A stretch of DNA of 64,000 nt, taken from the NCBI RefSeq assembly GCF_020567705.1, contig NZ_JAJDJU010000001.1:186001-250000 (forward strand), written 5' to 3'. The translations under genes were made by a program, and so were the position numbers. This stretch comes from Acidocella sp. KAb 2-4. Its GTDB lineage: Bacteria > Pseudomonadota > Alphaproteobacteria > Acetobacterales > Acetobacteraceae. Below, in pieces: positions 2,041 through 9,278 of this stretch; position 1 is the first letter of the stretch; each line of letters opens with the position of its first letter. The notes under the pieces were generated by a model that worked only from the letters and a program-made list of their open reading frames with translations, was not told the origin of the DNA and did not search any database.

Positions 2041-3123
2041 ATGCCCGCCCGCACCCTTCGCGCCATCGGCCTGATGTCCGGCACCTCGCTTGACGGCGTG
2101 GACGCCGCCTGGATCGAGACCGATGGCGAGCACGTGTTCCATTTCGGCCCGGCGGCGATGCTGCGCTATCAGGATGATCTGCGCGCCGATCTGCGCCGGC
2201 TGCTCGATCTTGCCCCTGGACTTAGCCCTGACGATCGTTTTTTACAACGAGTTGAGGAGCGCCTTACCCGCGACCATGCCCTGGCCGTCAGCATGACCGG
2301 GCGCGCGGCGGATGTGATCGGCTTTCATGGCCAGACGATCCTGCACGCGCCCGAGGCCCACCGCACCTGGCAGATCGGCGATGCGGTGCTGCTCGCGCAT
2401 ATCACCCGGATCCCGGTCGTGCATGATTTCCGCAGCGCCGATGTTGCCGCCGGGGGCCAGGGCGCGCCCTTCGCGCCGCTGTTTCATGCCGCGCTGGCCG
2501 CCGCTCTGCCCAAACCGCTGCTGGTGGTGAATATCGGCGGCGTCGCCAACATCACCTGGCTGGGCGCGGGGGGCGAGATCATTGCCTGCGACACCGGGCC
2601 AGGCAACGGCCCGCTCGACGATCTGGCCCAGCGCCACCTCGGCAAACCCTATGACGAAAACGGCGCCTTCGCGGCCTCGGGGCAGGTGGACGAGGCGCGG
2701 CTCGGGCTGCTGCTGGGGCATCCATATTTCGCCCGCCCGGCGCCGAAATCGCTGGACCGGCTGACCTTCTCCGCCCTCATCGCTCAGGCCATTGAGGGGT
2801 TACCCCCGGCGGACGCCGCCGCCACCCTGGCCGCTTTTTGCGCCACCGCCATTGGCCGCGCGCCCCTGCCTGCCCCGCCTTTGCGCGTGCTGGTGGGCGG
2901 CGGCGGGCGGCATAACGCGCATCTGATGCAACTGCTGGCGGCGCAATTTCCGGTGCCGGTGCAGCCGGTCGAGGCCGCGGGCTGGGATGGCGACGCGCTG
3001 GAGGCGCAATGCTTCGCCTTTCTCGCCGTGCGCTCGCTGCGCGGGCTGCCGCTCTCCTTGCCATCCACCACCGGCGTGCCGGAGCCGATGCCCGGCGGAC
3101 GGCTTCAGCGCCCAACCTTGTAG
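2041..3123 (+). CDS. anmK: Anhydro-N-acetylmuramic acid kinase
   Basis: Phosphorylates 1,6-anhydro-MurNAc from peptidoglycan turnover to MurNAc-6-P (cell-wall recycling, cytoplasm). Family signature [15 protein letters not shown] lies at the N-terminus, followed by [30 protein letters not shown], and [11 protein letters not shown] / [12 protein letters not shown], the ATP-binding fold of the Hsp70/actin-like kinases. 360 residues, normal length. I chose the ATG at 2041 because the protein starts right at the conserved motif; an in-frame start at 2005 adds twelve atypical residues. The 3' end overlaps the convergent GT-C gene by 19 bases. Confidence 0.95.
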
Positions 3124-4850
3124 AGCCGCCAGCCATCCTGGTTCTGCCCGGCCAGGGTCAGCCAGGGCGGCGGGGTGCCAGCATCAAGCGCGTCCCACAA
3201 CGTGTCTCGCGGCAGGTCGGCCACCAGAAGCGAGCGCGCCGGGCTGGGGCAGAACAGCACATAGGCCGCCTTGGCCGCCGCCAGCTCCGGCGGCACATTC
3301 CGCCCCGGCAGGGCGCGCCAGGCGGCGCGGTCGCGCAGATAGCCGGGCACGCCGTGCTGGTAGAGCGAACCGACGGTCTTCACCTGCGTCCGGTAGAGCA
3401 GTTCCGGCGCGTCACTCGGCCCGGCGAGCACCACCTGTCCGGCGGCGGCGGCCAGCAGCGGCGCGATATTGTGCAGCGTGCAGCTCGGGGCAGCGTGTAA
3501 TGCTGCGGCGGGCGCCTTGGGCGCAGGGGCGGCGAAGGCCGCCAGCTCCGGCACGCCAAGCACCAGCGCCAGCGCCGCGAGGCGCGCCAGGCTGGCCCGT
3601 TGCGGCGTGGCGGCGAGGCTGGCACTGGCTTGGCTGAGCGCCACCGGCAGCAGCGCCGCGCCAAGCACGGTCGAGAACCCGACGAAGAGCAGGAATTTCG
3701 CGCCCAGCGCCAGCGCTACCGCAGCGCACAGCGCCAGATACAGCCACATCAGCCGCGTATTGCCGCGCGGTGCGAGCAGCCCCTCGGCGGGCTCGGGCTG
3801 CCGCAGCCCGCGCCAGAGCGTATAAGCCAGGGCGCAACCGCCGGGGAACAGAAACACCACGAGATCATGCCCATGAAGCGGCCGCAACTCGCTGATTGCG
3901 CCGAAGAAGACCCGCGCCTGATCGGGCGGCAGAATGCCATAAGGCCCCAGCACCACGCCAGGAAACGCCGCCACCCAGACGCCAAACAGCACCGCCAGCA
4001 CCGCGAACCCGGCTGGGCCGCGCCAGGGCCACGGGCGCTCCTGCAACCGCAGCAGCACCGCCGCCCCGGCCAGGAATAGCAGCGCCATCACCACATACAC
4101 GCAGGAGAGCCGGTCCACTTCCGGCGCCAGATAACCACCCGCCGGCGGATCGACGAACAGCGCCACCACCAGCACATCGAAACACCCGGCGGCGGTGGCG
4201 AGCAGCACGGCGGCGTTTTTCGCCTCCAGCCAGCGCAGCGCCAGCGCGGTGTAGGCCATCAGCACAAATGGCATCGTCTCCGGCGTCAGCCAGATGGCGA
4301 AGCCCCCGCTCACCCCGGCAAGAAACCCGGCCCAGCGGTCATCGCGCCAGGCGCGGACGGCATACCCGGCGGTGAGCGCGATCATCGCCAGCAGCAGCAC
4401 ATGGTAATGCACCGCGCCGGGCACCGCGATCGTCACCACGCCCGGCAGCACGGCGGCGGCCAGCGTTGCGCTCCACAGATACCGGCGCAAGGCGAAGGGC
4501 TCCACCGCCCAGGCCGTGACCGCGCCGAGAAACCCGACACCGAGCGGCCCCAAAGCCACCCCGGCGGCAAGCAGCGCGCGGTGCCAGCCCAGCAACGGCG
4601 CCAGGGGCGCGGCCAAAAGCCAGAGCAACATATCCAGCAGGCGCGACCATTCCACCATCCCCCCGGCGCCGGACTGGTCGCCCGCCACGGTGGTGAGCAG
4701 ATGCCCGGCGCGGATGCCCTGCTCCAGGCGCACGAGGCGCATGTAGGAATCCGGGTCTTGCAGATTGCCCGCGAGCACGGCGGGCCAGTGCCCGGCACCG
4801 AGCAGGATGTTCAGCCCGGCGCCAAGCAGAAACAGCGCGAGCAGACCCAT
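3105..4850 (-). CDS. Polytopic membrane protein, STT3-like GT-C glycosyltransferase candidate
   Basis: 581 residues, almost entirely hydrophobic with about a dozen membrane segments and a soluble tail of roughly 120 residues. After the first segment there is NLQDPDSYMRLVRLEQG, which resembles the acidic D-x-D/'DPxxY' loop of GT-C enzymes such as oligosaccharyltransferase STT3 and PMT. Later WLTPETMPFVLMAYTAL places Glu and Pro as in the second acidic loop of STT3-type enzymes. Role inferred: transfer of a lipid-linked sugar on the periplasmic side; acceptor unknown. Last gene of a five-gene run, overlapping the upstream FMN-enzyme gene by one base (TGATG), so probably coupled to it. The assignment rests on fold-like features only. 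Confidence 0.55.
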   Translation of the reverse strand: MGLLALFLLGAGLNILLGAGHWPAVLAGNLQDPDSYMRLVRLEQGIRAGHLLTTVAGDQSGAGGMVEWSRLLDMLLWLLAAPLAPLLGWHRALLAAGVALGPLGVGFLGAVTAWAVEPFALRRYLWSATLAAAVLPGVVTIAVPGAVHYHVLLLAMIALTAGYAVRAWRDDRWAGFLAGVSGGFAIWLTPETMPFVLMAYTALALRWLEAKNAAVLLATAAGCFDVLVVALFVDPPAGGYLAPEVDRLSCVYVVMALLFLAGAAVLLRLQERPWPWRGPAGFAVLAVLFGVWVAAFPGVVLGPYGILPPDQARVFFGAISELRPLHGHDLVVFLFPGGCALAYTLWRGLRQPEPAEGLLAPRGNTRLMWLYLALCAAVALALGAKFLLFVGFSTVLGAALLPVALSQASASLAATPQRASLARLAALALVLGVPELAAFAAPAPKAPAAALHAAPSCTLHNIAPLLAAAAGQVVLAGPSDAPELLYRTQVKTVGSLYQHGVPGYLRDRAAWRALPGRNVPPELAAAKAAYVLFCPSPARSLLVADLPRDTLWDALDAGTPPPWLTLAGQNQDGWRLYKVGR

Positions 4851-6280
4851 CAGTTGGCGGCGGCCCTGAATCCGGCGACGCCGCGCTCAATCTCAGTGAC
4901 GTGTTTCGGCGCGAAATAGCTGGCGTCGGTGAGGCCGCAGGAATGCGCGATGATCTCCACCTCCTCGCGCATCTTTTTGGCGTAGCGCGCCACCCGCACC
5001 GCCTTATCGGCCGGGTTCAGCCCCCGGATCAGCCGCTCATCGGCGGCGGTGACCCCGGTGGGGCAGAAGCCGCTGCCGCATTTCATCGCCTGGATGCAGC
5101 CAAGCGAGAACATGAAGCCGCGCGCCGATGACACGAAATCCGCTCCCATGCAAAGCGCCCAGGCCACCTTGTCCGGCGTGATGAGCTTGCCCGAGGCGAC
5201 GATGCGGATGCGCTGTTGCAAGCCATGCTCGTAGCGCAGCCCGGCGACATAAGGCAGCGCCTGGGTGATCGGCATACCCACATAATCGGCCAACGGCTCG
5301 GGCGCGGCGCCGGTGCCGCCCTCGCCGCCGTCGATCTGCACGTAGTCGGGGCAATGCGCCGGGTTGCTGGCGCAATCGTCGAACCATTCATCGACGAACC
5401 GCGGATCACCCAGCACGAATTTCACCCCCACCGGCTTGCCAGTAATGCCGCGCACCCGCGCGATGAACGCGCCCAGCTCCTGCACGTTGCCGATATCCTT
5501 GTGGCGGTTGGGGGAGATGCTGTCCTGCCCCACCGGGATGCCGCGGATCTTCGCGACCTCGGCTGTCACCTTATGCGCGGGTAGAATGCCGCCTTTGCCG
5601 GGCTTCGCCCCCTGGGCCAGCTTCACCTCGAACATCCGCACCTGCGGATGCGCCGCGATCTCGCGCAGCTTCTCCTCGGAGAGATTGCCCAGCGCGTCGC
5701 GCACGCCGTATTTCGCGGTGCCGATCTGCATGATCAGATCCGCCCCGCCTTCGAGATGATAAGGCGACAGCCCGCCCTCGCCCGTGCTCATCCACACCCC
5801 CGCCATCTTCGCCCCGCGCGAGAGCGCGCTCACCGCCGCATGGCTCAGCGCGCCGTAAGACATGCCCGAGATGTTGAAGAAGCTTTGCGCCATATACGGC
5901 TCGCGGCAGGCGCCGGGGCCGTCGCTCACGCCGATCTGTTTGCCGGGATAGGGTTTCTGTTCCTCCTCCAGCGTCGGGAAGGCGGCGTTGCGGAAGATGA
6001 AGCTCGGCACGTTTTCGGAGCCGAAGCTGATGAGGTTGGAGAGCCCCTTGGCCGAGCGGTACACCCAGCTGCGCTCCAGCCGGTTGAACGGGCGCTCCGA
6101 CCAGTCGGGCAGATATTGGTATTGGCGCATATATTCGCCCCAGGTCTCGGCGAAATAGCGGAAATGGCCGATGACCGGGTAATTGCGCAGGATGGTGTGC
6201 TTGGTCTGGCGCACATCGTGCAGGTAAAGCGCCGCGATGCTCAGCACCAGCAGCACGATGATGATCTCTACACCCAGCAT
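4850..6280 (-). CDS. Membrane-anchored FMN-binding glutamate-synthase-like protein
   Basis: 476 residues. Residues 1-20 are a single membrane anchor (VEIIIVLLVLSIAALYL), so the enzyme is held at the inner membrane, probably facing the cytoplasm. The rest is the FMN TIM barrel of glutamate synthase (GltS_FMN family): SFFNISGMSYGALSHAA, STGEGGLSPYH, QIGTAKYGVR, GAKPGKGGILPAHKV, IDGGEGGTGAAPEPL, and near the C-terminus GCIQAMKCGSGFCPTGVT, whose cysteines match the 3Fe-4S region. There is no amidotransferase domain, as is common in the stand-alone family whose reaction is unsettled. A good Shine-Dalgarno (GGAG, seven bases before ATG) supports the start. Fourth gene of the Roadblock/GTPase operon. 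Confidence 0.85.
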   Translation of the reverse strand: MLGVEIIIVLLVLSIAALYLHDVRQTKHTILRNYPVIGHFRYFAETWGEYMRQYQYLPDWSERPFNRLERSWVYRSAKGLSNLISFGSENVPSFIFRNAAFPTLEEEQKPYPGKQIGVSDGPGACREPYMAQSFFNISGMSYGALSHAAVSALSRGAKMAGVWMSTGEGGLSPYHLEGGADLIMQIGTAKYGVRDALGNLSEEKLREIAAHPQVRMFEVKLAQGAKPGKGGILPAHKVTAEVAKIRGIPVGQDSISPNRHKDIGNVQELGAFIARVRGITGKPVGVKFVLGDPRFVDEWFDDCASNPAHCPDYVQIDGGEGGTGAAPEPLADYVGMPITQALPYVAGLRYEHGLQQRIRIVASGKLITPDKVAWALCMGADFVSSARGFMFSLGCIQAMKCGSGFCPTGVTAADERLIRGLNPADKAVRVARYAKKMREEVEIIAHSCGLTDASYFAPKHVTEIERGVAGFRAAAN

Positions 6281-6307
6281 CCCGTCTCTCCTTCGCGCTG
6301 GCCGCGA

Positions 6308-6703
6308 TCAGGCCAGCAATTCGCGGATTTCCGCCGCTGCGGCCTTGATGTTGACAAGGATGACGCCGAGCGAGGTGCGCGCGCTGACCATCAGGATCAG
6401 CGGCTGGCGCGTATCCGCGATGGTGATGCTGGCGATCTGCAGGCCCTGCGCCTCCATGGTGATGATATCGAGCAGCCCGCCCGCCGGCACATCCCACGAA
6501 AAATCGGAAGCCAGCGCATCGCCGATGGAATTCACCGAACTGGTCAGCGCCGCCATGCGCCCAACCAAATTTTCCGCCACGCCGACGGAGCAGACATTGA
6601 AGCCGTCCGGGGTGCAGATGAGCGCGTTGCGCAGCTGCGGGATCCGCGAGATCATTTTGCGGAAGGCGGGCCGTAACAGCACCCCAAGCTCGGAAAAATC
6701 CAT
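6308..6703 (-). CDS. Roadblock/LC7 domain protein (downstream copy)
   Basis: 131 residues forming one Roadblock/LC7 alpha-beta domain: an N-terminal helix (ELGVLLRPAFRKMISRIP), then ALICTPDGFNVCSVGV, a middle helix with MAALTSSVNSIGDALAS and the closing strands LDIITMEAQGLQIASITI and PLILMVSARTSLGVILVNIK. MglB-type proteins of this fold bind Ras-like GTPases and act as GAPs or scaffolds; here that is inferred from the GTPase gene 27 bases upstream. Start chosen at 6703, with GGGAG four bases before ATG; a GTG at 6721 is possible but has no ribosome-binding site. 27 bases separate it from the FMN-enzyme gene downstream. Confidence 0.8.
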   Translation of the reverse strand: MDFSELGVLLRPAFRKMISRIPQLRNALICTPDGFNVCSVGVAENLVGRMAALTSSVNSIGDALASDFSWDVPAGGLLDIITMEAQGLQIASITIADTRQPLILMVSARTSLGVILVNIKAAAAEIRELLA

Positions 6704-6730
6704 GTCGCTCCCGTACCTCACCTGAACCGG

Positions 6731-7390
6731 TCAGTCACCGCGCACCGCCCCTGGCAACGCCGTCAGCGCCGCCGCCACCATGCGGCGCACATCCTCGGCC
6801 GCGCGCGGATCGGCCGCCTGCACCACCGCCAGCGGGTGTAAACGTTGCACCAGCGCGCGATACGGCGCCAGCCCCGCTTCCTGCGCCGCCAATGGCAGGC
6901 GCGAGACGGCCACCGCCACCCGCAGCAGCGAAGCGCGCTGGCCGAGCGCGCGCAGCCAGGTGGCGCATTGGTTCACGCCCTCCGCCTGGTCGCCATAGGC
7001 CCACAGCACCACGGCCGCGCTGGCGGGCACCAGCAGGTCCCACATCGCGTCAAACCGCTCCTGCCCCGGCAGGCCGAACACCGCCACGCGCTCGCCCGCC
7101 GCGAGGCGGAACTCGCCATAATCAAACCCGGCGGTGGTCGTGGTCTTGCCGCCGGTACGCTGGGCGGTGTCGAGCTCGCGGCTGGCGACATCGGTGTTCA
7201 CCACCGGAATTTCGGAGATTGCGCGCAGCGCGGTGGTTTTGCCGACGCCGAACGGCCCGGCAAACACCACCTGCCGGGAGGCAGGGTGCCCGAGCACGAT
7301 CTCAAGCGCGTCTTCAGGCTGCAACTCCACGGACCTCACCTTGGCCTCAACGCCCGCCTGGCCGGCGCCATACGGGCAGCCAAGTTTCAC
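6731..7390 (-). CDS. Small Ras-like GTPase partner of Roadblock proteins
   Basis: 219 residues. P-loop GPFGVGKTT at about residues 45-53, switch I candidate KTTTTAGFDYG (82-92), and switch II FGLPGQERFDAMW (105-117), where the canonical DxxGQ is GLPGQ. I find no NKxD guanine-specificity motif; the expected place reads VAVAVSRLPL. The protein therefore looks like the bacterial 'ATP/GTP-binding' MglA/SRPRB-like group, and nucleotide preference is uncertain. It begins with GTG overlapping the stop of the upstream Roadblock gene (GTGA), so the two are translationally coupled. Likely a switch whose state is read or reset by the flanking Roadblock proteins (inference). Confidence 0.8.
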   Translation of the reverse strand: MKLGCPYGAGQAGVEAKVRSVELQPEDALEIVLGHPASRQVVFAGPFGVGKTTALRAISEIPVVNTDVASRELDTAQRTGGKTTTTAGFDYGEFRLAAGERVAVFGLPGQERFDAMWDLLVPASAAVVLWAYGDQAEGVNQCATWLRALGQRASLLRVAVAVSRLPLAAQEAGLAPYRALVQRLHPLAVVQAADPRAAEDVRRMVAAALTALPGAVRGD

Positions 7391-7770
7391 CCGCCGAGGC
7401 GCGCCGCGTCAACGCCGCTCAGCATCTTGGGCAGCGCCACGGCCAGTAGCACGCCGAGGTTGACCTTCGCGGCATCCATCAGAACGCCCTGTAAAATCCC
7501 GGCGCCGTGCTGGATGATCATCACCGTCTTGCCGCCTTCGAGATCCATGTAGAAATAGCGGCTGAGCTTGGGGAAGCCCGAGGCGGCAAGCGTGTCGTTG
7601 AGCGAGTTGGTAATCTCGGTAAACAACGCCACGGCGGTCGGCTGCGAGTTGAAGCCCGCAAGCGAGAGGCCGGTGGAACGGTCCCAGATATCGGTGGCCA
7701 GGAGGCCATCCTTCATCGTGGCACGAAGGTCGGCGACGGCGGTTTCGAGTCTCTGCACGTCAATCTGCAT
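7387..7770 (-). CDS. Roadblock/LC7-like protein (upstream copy)
   Basis: 127 residues with a Roadblock-like layout: N-terminal helix MQIDVQRLETAVADLRATM, strand ATDIWDRSTGLSLAGF, a helix ALFTEITNSLNDTLAA, strands RYFYMDLEGGKTVMIIQ and a final helix. It is divergent from the second copy (6308-6703), so the pair may bind the GTPase as a heterodimer or act at different steps (inference). Strong ribosome-binding site: AAGGAGG eight bases before the ATG. First gene of the operon; a promoter-like element and a perfect dyad lie in the 155-base gap upstream. A related small family of unknown function cannot be excluded. Confidence 0.65.
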   Translation of the reverse strand: MQIDVQRLETAVADLRATMKDGLLATDIWDRSTGLSLAGFNSQPTAVALFTEITNSLNDTLAASGFPKLSRYFYMDLEGGKTVMIIQHGAGILQGVLMDAAKVNLGVLLAVALPKMLSGVDAARLGG

Positions 7771-7846
7771 CGGGCATCCTCCTTGTCGATCGGGCTGTTG
7801 GGCTTCGCCTGTTCGCCGCCCGCCACGCTGGCCGGGACGGTTCGTA

Positions 7847-7864
7847 GGTTAACATTCTTTAACC
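7847..7864. promoter_or_regulatory. Perfect dyad with TTAA-N6-TTAA core over the Roadblock operon start point
   Basis: GGTTAA-CATTCT-TTAACC is a perfect inverted repeat with six-base arms. It sits where transcription from the candidate promoter at 7867-7895 would begin, a repressor-like position. It resembles the CtrA site TTAA-N7-TTAAC but the spacing is one base short, so another regulator is equally possible. Confidence 0.4.
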
Positions 7865-7866
7865 AC

Positions 7867-7895
7867 AGGATTGAGGGATTGAGCTGCGCCGTCAA
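7867..7895 (-). promoter_or_regulatory. Candidate promoter of the Roadblock-GTPase operon
   Basis: On the minus strand TTGACG (7890-7895, five of six) is followed after 17 bases by AATCCT (7867-7872, three of six). It is the best promoter match in the gap between the kinase gene and the first Roadblock gene. The leader would be about 90 bases. Confidence 0.35.
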
Positions 7896-7925
7896 GTGCT
7901 TATCGCGTCTGGCGCGAATCAAAAC

Positions 7926-9278
7926 TCAACCGGCGCGGCCGGGTAACCAGACGGTGAACACCGACCCCTTGCCCGGATCACTGTCGATCGCCAGCCGCCC
8001 GCGATGGCGGTTAATGACATGCTTGACGATGGCCAGCCCCAGCCCGGTGCCGCCGACGGCGCGTGAGCGGCCCTTATCCACCCGATAGAAACGCTCGGTC
8101 AGGCGCGGGATATGCTCGCGCGGAATGCCCGGCCCGTTATCGGCCACGCTCACGCTCACCCCGCCCGGCTCGAAGCGTGTATCCGGCGCCACGGTGGCGG
8201 ATAACCGCACCACCCCGCCCGGCTTGCCATATTTCAAAGCGTTATCGAGCAGATTGCTGAAGACCTGGGCGAGCTGGTCGGCATCAGCCGGGATTTTCGG
8301 CAAATCCGGCGGCACGTTCACCTCAAGTCGCGTGCCGCTGGCGCGCAGCAGCGGCTCCAGCCCGGCGGCGACACGCTCCAGCACCGGCGGCAGATGCACC
8401 AGCTCCTTCGGCGGCGAATGCTCCGAGATCTCGATGCGCGAGAGGCTGAGCAGATCGCCGATCAGGCGCTGCATCCGCGCCGCCTGCTCGGCCATGATGC
8501 CGAGGAAGCGCTGCTGCGCCTCCGGGTCGTCGGCGGCGGGGCCGCGCAGGGTCTCGATGAAGCCGGAGAGCGAGGCGAGCGGCGTGCGCAGCTCGTGGCT
8601 GGCATTGGCGATGAAATCGGCGCGCATCTTCTCCACCGCACGCTCATGCGTGCGGTCGCTCACCAGCAGATAAAGCGGCCCGGCGGCGGGAATCAGGGTG
8701 ACATGAAGATCGCGCGTGACCGGCGCCGCGAGCACGATCTCGCGCCGCACCGGCGCGTTGTCGCGGAGTGCCTCGGCCAGGGCGGCGCGCACATCCGGGT
8801 GGCGCAGCAGGGCCGCGATCTCGCCGCTGAAGGCGGTGGCGGCACTGGCGTTGCGCCACAGGATGTTGGCTTCGGCGTCTAGCTTCAGCAGCGGGTCGGG
8901 CAGACGCTCGACCAGCGCGCGGTCCTCGGCGGCGCTTTCCAGCTGACGCGCGCGCGAAAGCCGCTCGGCGCGGATCAGGCGGATCGCCTCCTCCCCCAGC
9001 TCGCGCATGCCGGGCACCAGCAGCGCCGGCTCATCGGGCAGGCTCTCCGGCGCGCGGCGAAGGGCGCGCAACAGCCTGGTCATCGCCTTAACGTCACGCC
9101 CGAGCAGGGCAGAAAACGCAACCGCCACGGCGGTGCATAGCCCCCAGGCCAGCAGCGCCGGCGCTGGCGCCAGCCGCCCGGCCAGCACCAGCGCGAGAAA
9201 AGCCAAACTGGGCACCAGCGCCAGCGCCACGAACAGGCTGGCCGCGGCGGAGCGGATGACGCCGGAGGCTCGTTCCAT
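7926..9278 (-). CDS. Sensor histidine kinase, PhoR-like
   Basis: 450 residues. Two membrane segments lie in residues 10-60 with almost no periplasmic loop, then a PAS-like region (about 120-210: LVERLPDPLLKLDAEANILWRN), a HisKA box with the phospho-acceptor His at about 228 (ANASHELRTPLASLSGF), and a HATPase domain with NLLDNALKYG, DNGPGIP, RFYRVDKGRSR and GGTGLGLAIVKH. This is the layout of PhoR. No phoB or other response regulator is next to it, so phosphate sensing is only a guess. It follows the LpoA-like lipoprotein gene by nine bases on the same strand and may share its mRNA. Confidence 0.85.
   Translation of the reverse strand: MERASGVIRSAAASLFVALALVPSLAFLALVLAGRLAPAPALLAWGLCTAVAVAFSALLGRDVKAMTRLLRALRRAPESLPDEPALLVPGMRELGEEAIRLIRAERLSRARQLESAAEDRALVERLPDPLLKLDAEANILWRNASAATAFSGEIAALLRHPDVRAALAEALRDNAPVRREIVLAAPVTRDLHVTLIPAAGPLYLLVSDRTHERAVEKMRADFIANASHELRTPLASLSGFIETLRGPAADDPEAQQRFLGIMAEQAARMQRLIGDLLSLSRIEISEHSPPKELVHLPPVLERVAAGLEPLLRASGTRLEVNVPPDLPKIPADADQLAQVFSNLLDNALKYGKPGGVVRLSATVAPDTRFEPGGVSVSVADNGPGIPREHIPRLTERFYRVDKGRSRAVGGTGLGLAIVKHVINRHRGRLAIDSDPGKGSVFTVWLPGRAG

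Follow-up and report, generated by a model that had tools for sequence, protein, structure and literature searches.

The analyzed window, a 64,000-nucleotide stretch of the genome of Acidocella sp. KAb 2-4, contains a compact group of genes in which a Ras-like guanosine triphosphatase (GTPase) of the MglA type lies between two Roadblock-type genes, RB1 and RB2. These three genes are probably a lineage-restricted switch cassette with an MglA-like mechanism, placed between a phoR gene and an older, genus-wide pair of genes that code for a glutamate-synthase-like flavin mononucleotide (FMN) enzyme and a polytopic membrane protein. An earlier inspection of the DNA letters (the sequence-only reading) had described five same-strand genes with gaps of -4, 27, 27, and -1 bases, and this layout was confirmed. 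In window positions, used throughout, the run is entirely on the minus strand and comprises RB1 (7387..7770; 127 residues, the diverged Roadblock-like first gene of the module), the GTPase (6731..7390; 219 residues, GTG start as called), RB2 (6308..6703; 131 residues), the FMN enzyme (4850..6280; 476 residues) and the membrane protein (3105..4850; 581 residues, including a C-terminal soluble region). RB1 overlaps the GTPase gene by 4 bases, the FMN gene overlaps the membrane-protein gene by 1 base, and gaps of 27 bases lie on each side of RB2; these spacings take the start codons called by the open reading frame lister.

The two parts of the run differ in their distribution. Of 38 genomes of the genus, 3 have an ortholog of the GTPase, namely that of the window and two others (G007 and G020); in both of these the five genes follow one another as in the window and have the same flanks. 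A neighborhood comparison thus showed the order in more than one strain, and it was not found outside these three genomes in the genomes and loci searched. The FMN gene occurs in 35 of 37 genus genomes and the membrane-protein gene in 34 of 37 (close orthologs, counting fragments at contig ends); the two are adjacent in 31 of the 34 genomes with both, and in the other three they are found on separate contigs of drafts. Twenty stretches were fetched from genomes without the switch, in which the phoR-FMN junction is visible in 9 and not visible in 11. No switch genes are found at any of the 9 visible junctions, of which five are about 70-120 bases long and four hold other genes. The spacings also differ between the two parts. 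The RB1-GTPase overlap of the window is not retained in G007 or G020, and the RB2-FMN gap is 150 bases in G007 and 66 bases in G020, while the overlap of the FMN and membrane-protein genes is 1 base in the three carriers and 1 or 4 bases in four relatives (the 4 of 12 further relatives resolved by the gene caller and a motif filter, the other 8 being dropped). The constant couple is therefore the FMN enzyme and the membrane protein. Since this pair is genus-wide and mostly occurs without the switch, the proposal of the sequence-only reading that the five genes form a functional unit is unsupported.

Matches to the GTPase were found in 6 of 299 family genomes: the same three carriers, G134, and two weak ones. 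The protein of G134 was not accepted as an ortholog, being distant (31% identity) and part of another Roadblock-X-GTPase-Roadblock operon, nor were the weak matches, at E about 2e-4, in G104 and in G189 (the latter in a stretch that hits ABC_tran) or, within the genus, that in G003 (7e-4, 36% over 79 residues). RB2 is present in 3 of 61 relatives. RB1 is present in 3 of 299 family genomes and in 4 of the 61 relatives, the fourth (G035) having a paralogue without a switch; beyond the genus, a 9-row RB1 profile matched 1 of 385 genomes of the class, the window's own, so that in these searches RB1 was confined to the genus. A plasmid-borne module was also considered and rejected: none of the 48 plasmid records with GTPase relatives covers 80% of the query, all of them are distant, and RB1 has no match. 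In a tree of 23 genomes, G012 and G034, both without the switch, form the sister group of the window's genome, and the larger clade also includes G029, in which no switch was found, as well as G007 and G020. Both one gain with losses and repeated gain at one site fit this pattern.

The identification of the gene between RB1 and RB2 as a Ras-like GTPase is borne out by a recognizable MglA-type motif set. The best Pfam match is ATP_bind_1 (1.1e-8), and small-GTPase families match only below threshold. The protein has a P-loop (GPFGVGKTT), a threonine-rich switch I (KTTTT) without an arginine finger beside the G2 threonine, a G3 motif GLPGQ of the GTPGQ type (with L in place of T, as in 7 of 82 aligned sequences) and a G5 motif DPR. 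The first three of these features are those of MglA Groups 2-5, and the G5 arginine, corresponding to the DAR motif, is that of Groups 2 and 3, which are described as lacking a G2 arginine and having PGQ in G3 and an arginine in G5 (PMC4316618). The protein is, on these motifs, an MglA-like GTPase of Group 2/3 type, with an N terminus longer than in its relatives. In place of the canonical G4 [NT]KxD, the three carriers have SRLP, SRLG, and SRLA, whereas the aspartate is present in 57 of the 82 aligned sequences; a P in this column is also found in the aligned GTPase of a Streptomyces conservon. The missing aspartate possibly indicates a less guanine-selective nucleoside triphosphatase (NTPase). 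It is no proof of lost GTP binding, since GTPase activity has been reported for CvnD9 despite its deviant G4 (PMC4316618). The P-loop, the switch regions, and the G5 arginine are retained in all three carriers although the G4 aspartate is missing.

Two different Roadblock proteins had been proposed in the sequence-only reading. For RB2 the assignment to the MglB/CvnB-type Roadblocks is certain from profile comparisons. Alone, the window protein matches Robl_LC7 at an E-value of 0.075, below the cut-off; all seven members of its alignment match this family at E-values up to 1 (best 5.5e-12), and the seven-row family profile matches the Roadblock structures 9jue (1.6e-12), 7f8m, 9hef, and 3leq. 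Among the solved proteins that the profile matches are CvnB5 and Rv3364c, the latter presumably MfpD. In G007 and G020, RB2 carries a Pro/Ala/Trp-rich repetitive N-terminal extension of about 330 residues (L009 7835-9235 and L010 10275-11684), which the window RB2 lacks and which evolves fast (ratio of nonsynonymous to synonymous substitution rates, dN/dS, 0.57).

For RB1, a Roadblock is likely and less than certain. It has no Pfam match and no PDB profile match, so that an ordinary Pfam Roadblock was rejected; its identity in G007 and G020 is 72%. Probably it is a diverged Roadblock, as several sequence comparisons suggest. Its alignment with the upstream Roadblock of the Microbacterium module spans 101 columns, most of its length (hhalign score 23.3, against a null maximum of 19.9 in 148 windows), and it scores 24.3 against the RB2-type family (null at most 20.6 in 140 windows), the null windows being drawn from only six proteins. 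In pairwise comparisons, none of 300 shuffles reached the score of the window RB1 against either of two Microbacterium proteins, L130 and L129. The corresponding numbers against L130 and L129 were 0 and 1 for G007, 0 and 7 for the paralogous copy at L108, 4 and 3 for that at L110, and 7 and 7 for that at L112. Other hhalign runs of RB1 against Roadblocks gave probabilities of 0.9 to 11%, which counts against a Roadblock identity. Two sets of presumed Roadblocks reached 9.4%, no better than RB1, and a comparison between the two Roadblock families stayed within the null at 14.1, so hhalign discriminates poorly in this case. The chain from RB1 to the Roadblocks has two steps, because the Microbacterium proteins L130 and L129 do not match Robl_LC7 themselves and a related proteobacterial protein (L191) matches it at 2.2e-4, below the cut-off. 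RB1 paralogues without a GTPase (L108-L113) were observed elsewhere in the genus. One lies beside a DUF6976 gene in G020 (scanned), with a near-identical counterpart in G007; others in these two genomes are near what we take to be a polyhydroxyalkanoate synthase gene, and further ones in G007 and G035 are in a presumably aromatic-acid catabolic cluster.

Comparison with related loci places the switch among known arrangements of these proteins. Among the best 80 of at least 519 related GTPase loci, analyzed with flanks of up to 8 kb and with Roadblock profiles built partly from members of the same loci, an RB2-type Roadblock is directly downstream of the GTPase in 68, an upstream-type Roadblock is within 3 kb in 58, and both types are present in 53. 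The sequence-only reading had linked the genes to MglA/MglB and to the conservons. This was right and incomplete, since GTPase loci with two Roadblocks are common and MglA Group 3 systems, too, are reported to contain either one MglB homologue or two (PMC4316618). The compact Roadblock-GTPase-Roadblock order is found in four of the 80 loci, all from Microbacterium (L130, L137, L173, and L175). These share the three-gene order with the window and, in L130 and L175, 4-base overlaps, and RB1 aligns with their first gene. In a tree of 35 GTPase sequences, the three carriers group with L129 and L130 as their sisters (local support 0.94). The Microbacterium module differs, however, in having no FMN or membrane-protein neighbor, and the window RB1 is strongly diverged from its counterpart.

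With the MglA Group 3 systems, described as almost exclusively beta/gamma-proteobacterial, the window shares the Group 2/3 GTPase motifs and Roadblock genes, of which those systems have one or two (Wuichet and Sogaard-Andersen, 2014; PMC4316618). It differs from them in lacking an adjacent gene for a receiver/winged-helix partner of unknown function, the flanking genes being phoR, those of the FMN enzyme and the membrane protein, and anmK; in having no further gene between RB1 and RB2; and in the FMN and membrane-protein genes downstream and the absent G4 aspartate. The actinobacterial conservon CvnABCD (Group 2) likewise combines a Roadblock with a Ras-like GTPase, and the RB2 profile matches CvnB5 (PMC8510531, PMC13343842). 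The full set of histidine kinase, CvnB, DUF742-containing CvnC, and CvnD is not assembled in the window: the five genes and the three flanking genes scanned contain no DUF742/CvnC match, and the neighboring kinase is not specific to the carriers. The MglA of Myxococcus is assigned to Group 1 and has an arginine finger of its own (PMC4316618). There, as in the window, the GTPase has two regulators, one of them an MglB Roadblock; the other is RomY, whose conserved domain is reported to match no characterized domain model (PMC9481161). The switch, then, fits the GTPase motifs of Groups 2 and 3 and not the context of a Group 3 system or a conservon. In the open-licence literature, no paper was found that joins glutamate synthase, roadblock, and Ras-like GTPase, and none that joins Acidocella and roadblock.

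The membrane-anchored, glutamate-synthase-like character of the FMN enzyme was upheld. Glu_synthase (PF01645, 1.7e-85) is the sole domain over the cut-off, and one N-terminal hydrophobic helix is read from the sequence. As in GltB (2vdc, 1ea0), the enzyme has the sequence of the FMN domain and a C-x5-C-x4-C motif with the three cluster cysteines in register, which we take to bind a 3Fe-4S cluster; in contrast to GltB, it is a stand-alone protein with its hydrophobic helix. The membrane protein had been put forward as a polytopic candidate for a glycosyltransferase of the GT-C type. Its polytopic nature stands, while GT-C has weak hints and is plausible but unproven from the sequence comparisons. 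There is no PDB match and, in 13 members, no Pfam family over the cut-off; eight of the 13 weakly match an NCBIfam putative glycosyltransferase (best 0.0027), for which the window protein scores 12.2 bits against a cut-off of 200. The motif DPDSYMRL is invariant in 13 of 13 members. The AlphaFold model, with a predicted local distance difference test (pLDDT) of 38.5, is too poor for a structure search. In G035 (G035:C88:35393-36481) the match to this protein is partial (residues 72-441, 49% identity) and contains one in-frame TAA.

By analogy with the family, the MglA-type GTPase would cycle between nucleotide states, and RB2, as a dimer of MglB/CvnB type, may promote hydrolysis as a GTPase-activating protein or provide a platform. 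RB1 could act as a second regulator or scaffold, like the Roadblocks near related GTPases. In the window, switch and FMN pair are probably transcribed together, but the pair can do without the switch. Several results weigh against the switch-cassette interpretation as a whole. The GTPase tree has several weak nodes. Within the operon region, nine terminator-like pattern matches were found against 3.0 expected from shuffles, none of them in the RB2-FMN gap. The sequence-only reading had named a missing Roadblock fold of the 127-residue RB1 as a point of refutation. Its AlphaFold model (pLDDT 42.8, from a two-row alignment; helix-helix-three strands-helix) is of low confidence and gives no confident fold, and a Roadblock is favored by the sequence comparisons; Foldseek on this model returned MglB and archaeal Roadblocks at E about 1, behind unrelated proteins, and was not counted as evidence. 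Finally, two lineages with GTPases of only about 54% identity have both kept the switch in one place in front of this pair, and a functional link could be the reason.

Such a link would exist if the switch had been recruited in the three genomes as a gate for the FMN enzyme, the membrane protein, or both, for example by nucleotide-dependent membrane recruitment. In all three carriers it is directly upstream on the same strand; in the window the RB2-FMN gap is short, and a scan for one promoter type found no promoter-like site in 3000-8000 (0.5 expected). Selection also speaks for it. By the Nei-Gojobori method, dN/dS between G007 and G020 is 0.04 for RB1, 0.23 for the GTPase, 0.16 for the C-terminal part of RB2, 0.09 for the FMN enzyme, and 0.18 for the membrane protein; between the window and these two genomes it is 0.17-0.30, 0.45-0.63, 0.25-0.44, 0.15-0.17, and 0.38-0.44, respectively. 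All five genes thus have values below 1 in every comparison and are under purifying selection. Nevertheless, we consider recruitment unlikely: only three of the 34 genus genomes with both pair genes contain the GTPase (several are incomplete drafts), the RB2-FMN gap is not conserved, and neither the FMN enzyme nor the membrane protein was found (E 1e-5, flanks of up to 8 kb) in any of the 79 GTPase loci other than that of G020. The GTPase-gated redox or glycan process suggested by the sequence-only reading is possible but unsupported. The low dN/dS values of the cassette genes between G007 and G020 argue against a nearly neutral passenger that was gained and is being lost beside meaningless neighbors. 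This would account for the patchy distribution and for the lack of a switch in G012 and G034, the nearest sister genomes, and appears highly improbable given also that carriers occur on either side of a deep branching of the genus tree.

The switch might alternatively work with the kinase upstream, as in a conservon, a single system made up of histidine kinase, Roadblock, DUF742 protein, and GTPase. The PhoR-like histidine kinase gene (7926..9278, minus strand; HisKA and HATPase_c in Pfam) precedes RB1 on the same strand at 155 bases, and a Streptomyces plasmid is annotated with an ATP-binding protein, Roadblock, DUF742, and GTPase in that order. However, the kinase occupies the same site in nine relatives without the switch, a terminator-like hairpin (pattern match only) lies at the phoR end, and in G007 and G020 an opposite-strand phosphatase-like gene separates phoR from RB1. 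Together with the lack of DUF742 among the genes and flanks scanned, this makes such coupling very unlikely. The interpretation that we favor is that of a switch cassette placed beside an older pair; its association with the FMN enzyme, new in the searches made, is best read as a neighborhood, not a system.

On the other side of the run, anmK (2050..3123, plus strand; PF03702, 2.3e-81) is convergent, shares 19 bases with the end of the membrane-protein gene, and, like phoR, is at the same site in relatives. The phoR-FMN junction varies across the genus. The gene that occupies part of it in G007 is dual-specificity-phosphatase-like (L009 10730-11302, the copy scanned). The junction was also seen in L092, L093, and L102, and some genomes have other genes there, one of them read as a P450. 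A further Roadblock protein was noticed elsewhere in the window's own genome (L001 868-1785; contig C67, about 82.8 kb), a 305-residue fusion of Roadblock (8.6e-12) and Protoglobin (8.8e-20) domains, which hints at a gas or redox sensor linked to Roadblock proteins. On a Thermus plasmid, a GTPase gene, two protoglobin genes, and a Roadblock gene adjoin one another, and no paper joining roadblock and protoglobin was found in the open-licence literature.

These results indicate that a Roadblock-GTPase-Roadblock cassette can be a compact, selected, and lineage-restricted unit outside the settings of motility and conservons, and they offer a natural comparison between relatives that have the switch in front of the two pair genes and relatives that lack it there. 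A bolder possibility, which we regard as quite unlikely, is that the GTPase, or less guanine-selective NTPase, with its two Roadblock regulators controls the membrane-anchored FMN enzyme together with the polytopic protein that is its partner. If true, a Roadblock switch would for the first time be tied to a flavoenzyme or an envelope pathway, and if the switch gated the pair, the reach of Roadblock switches would extend to redox or envelope chemistry.

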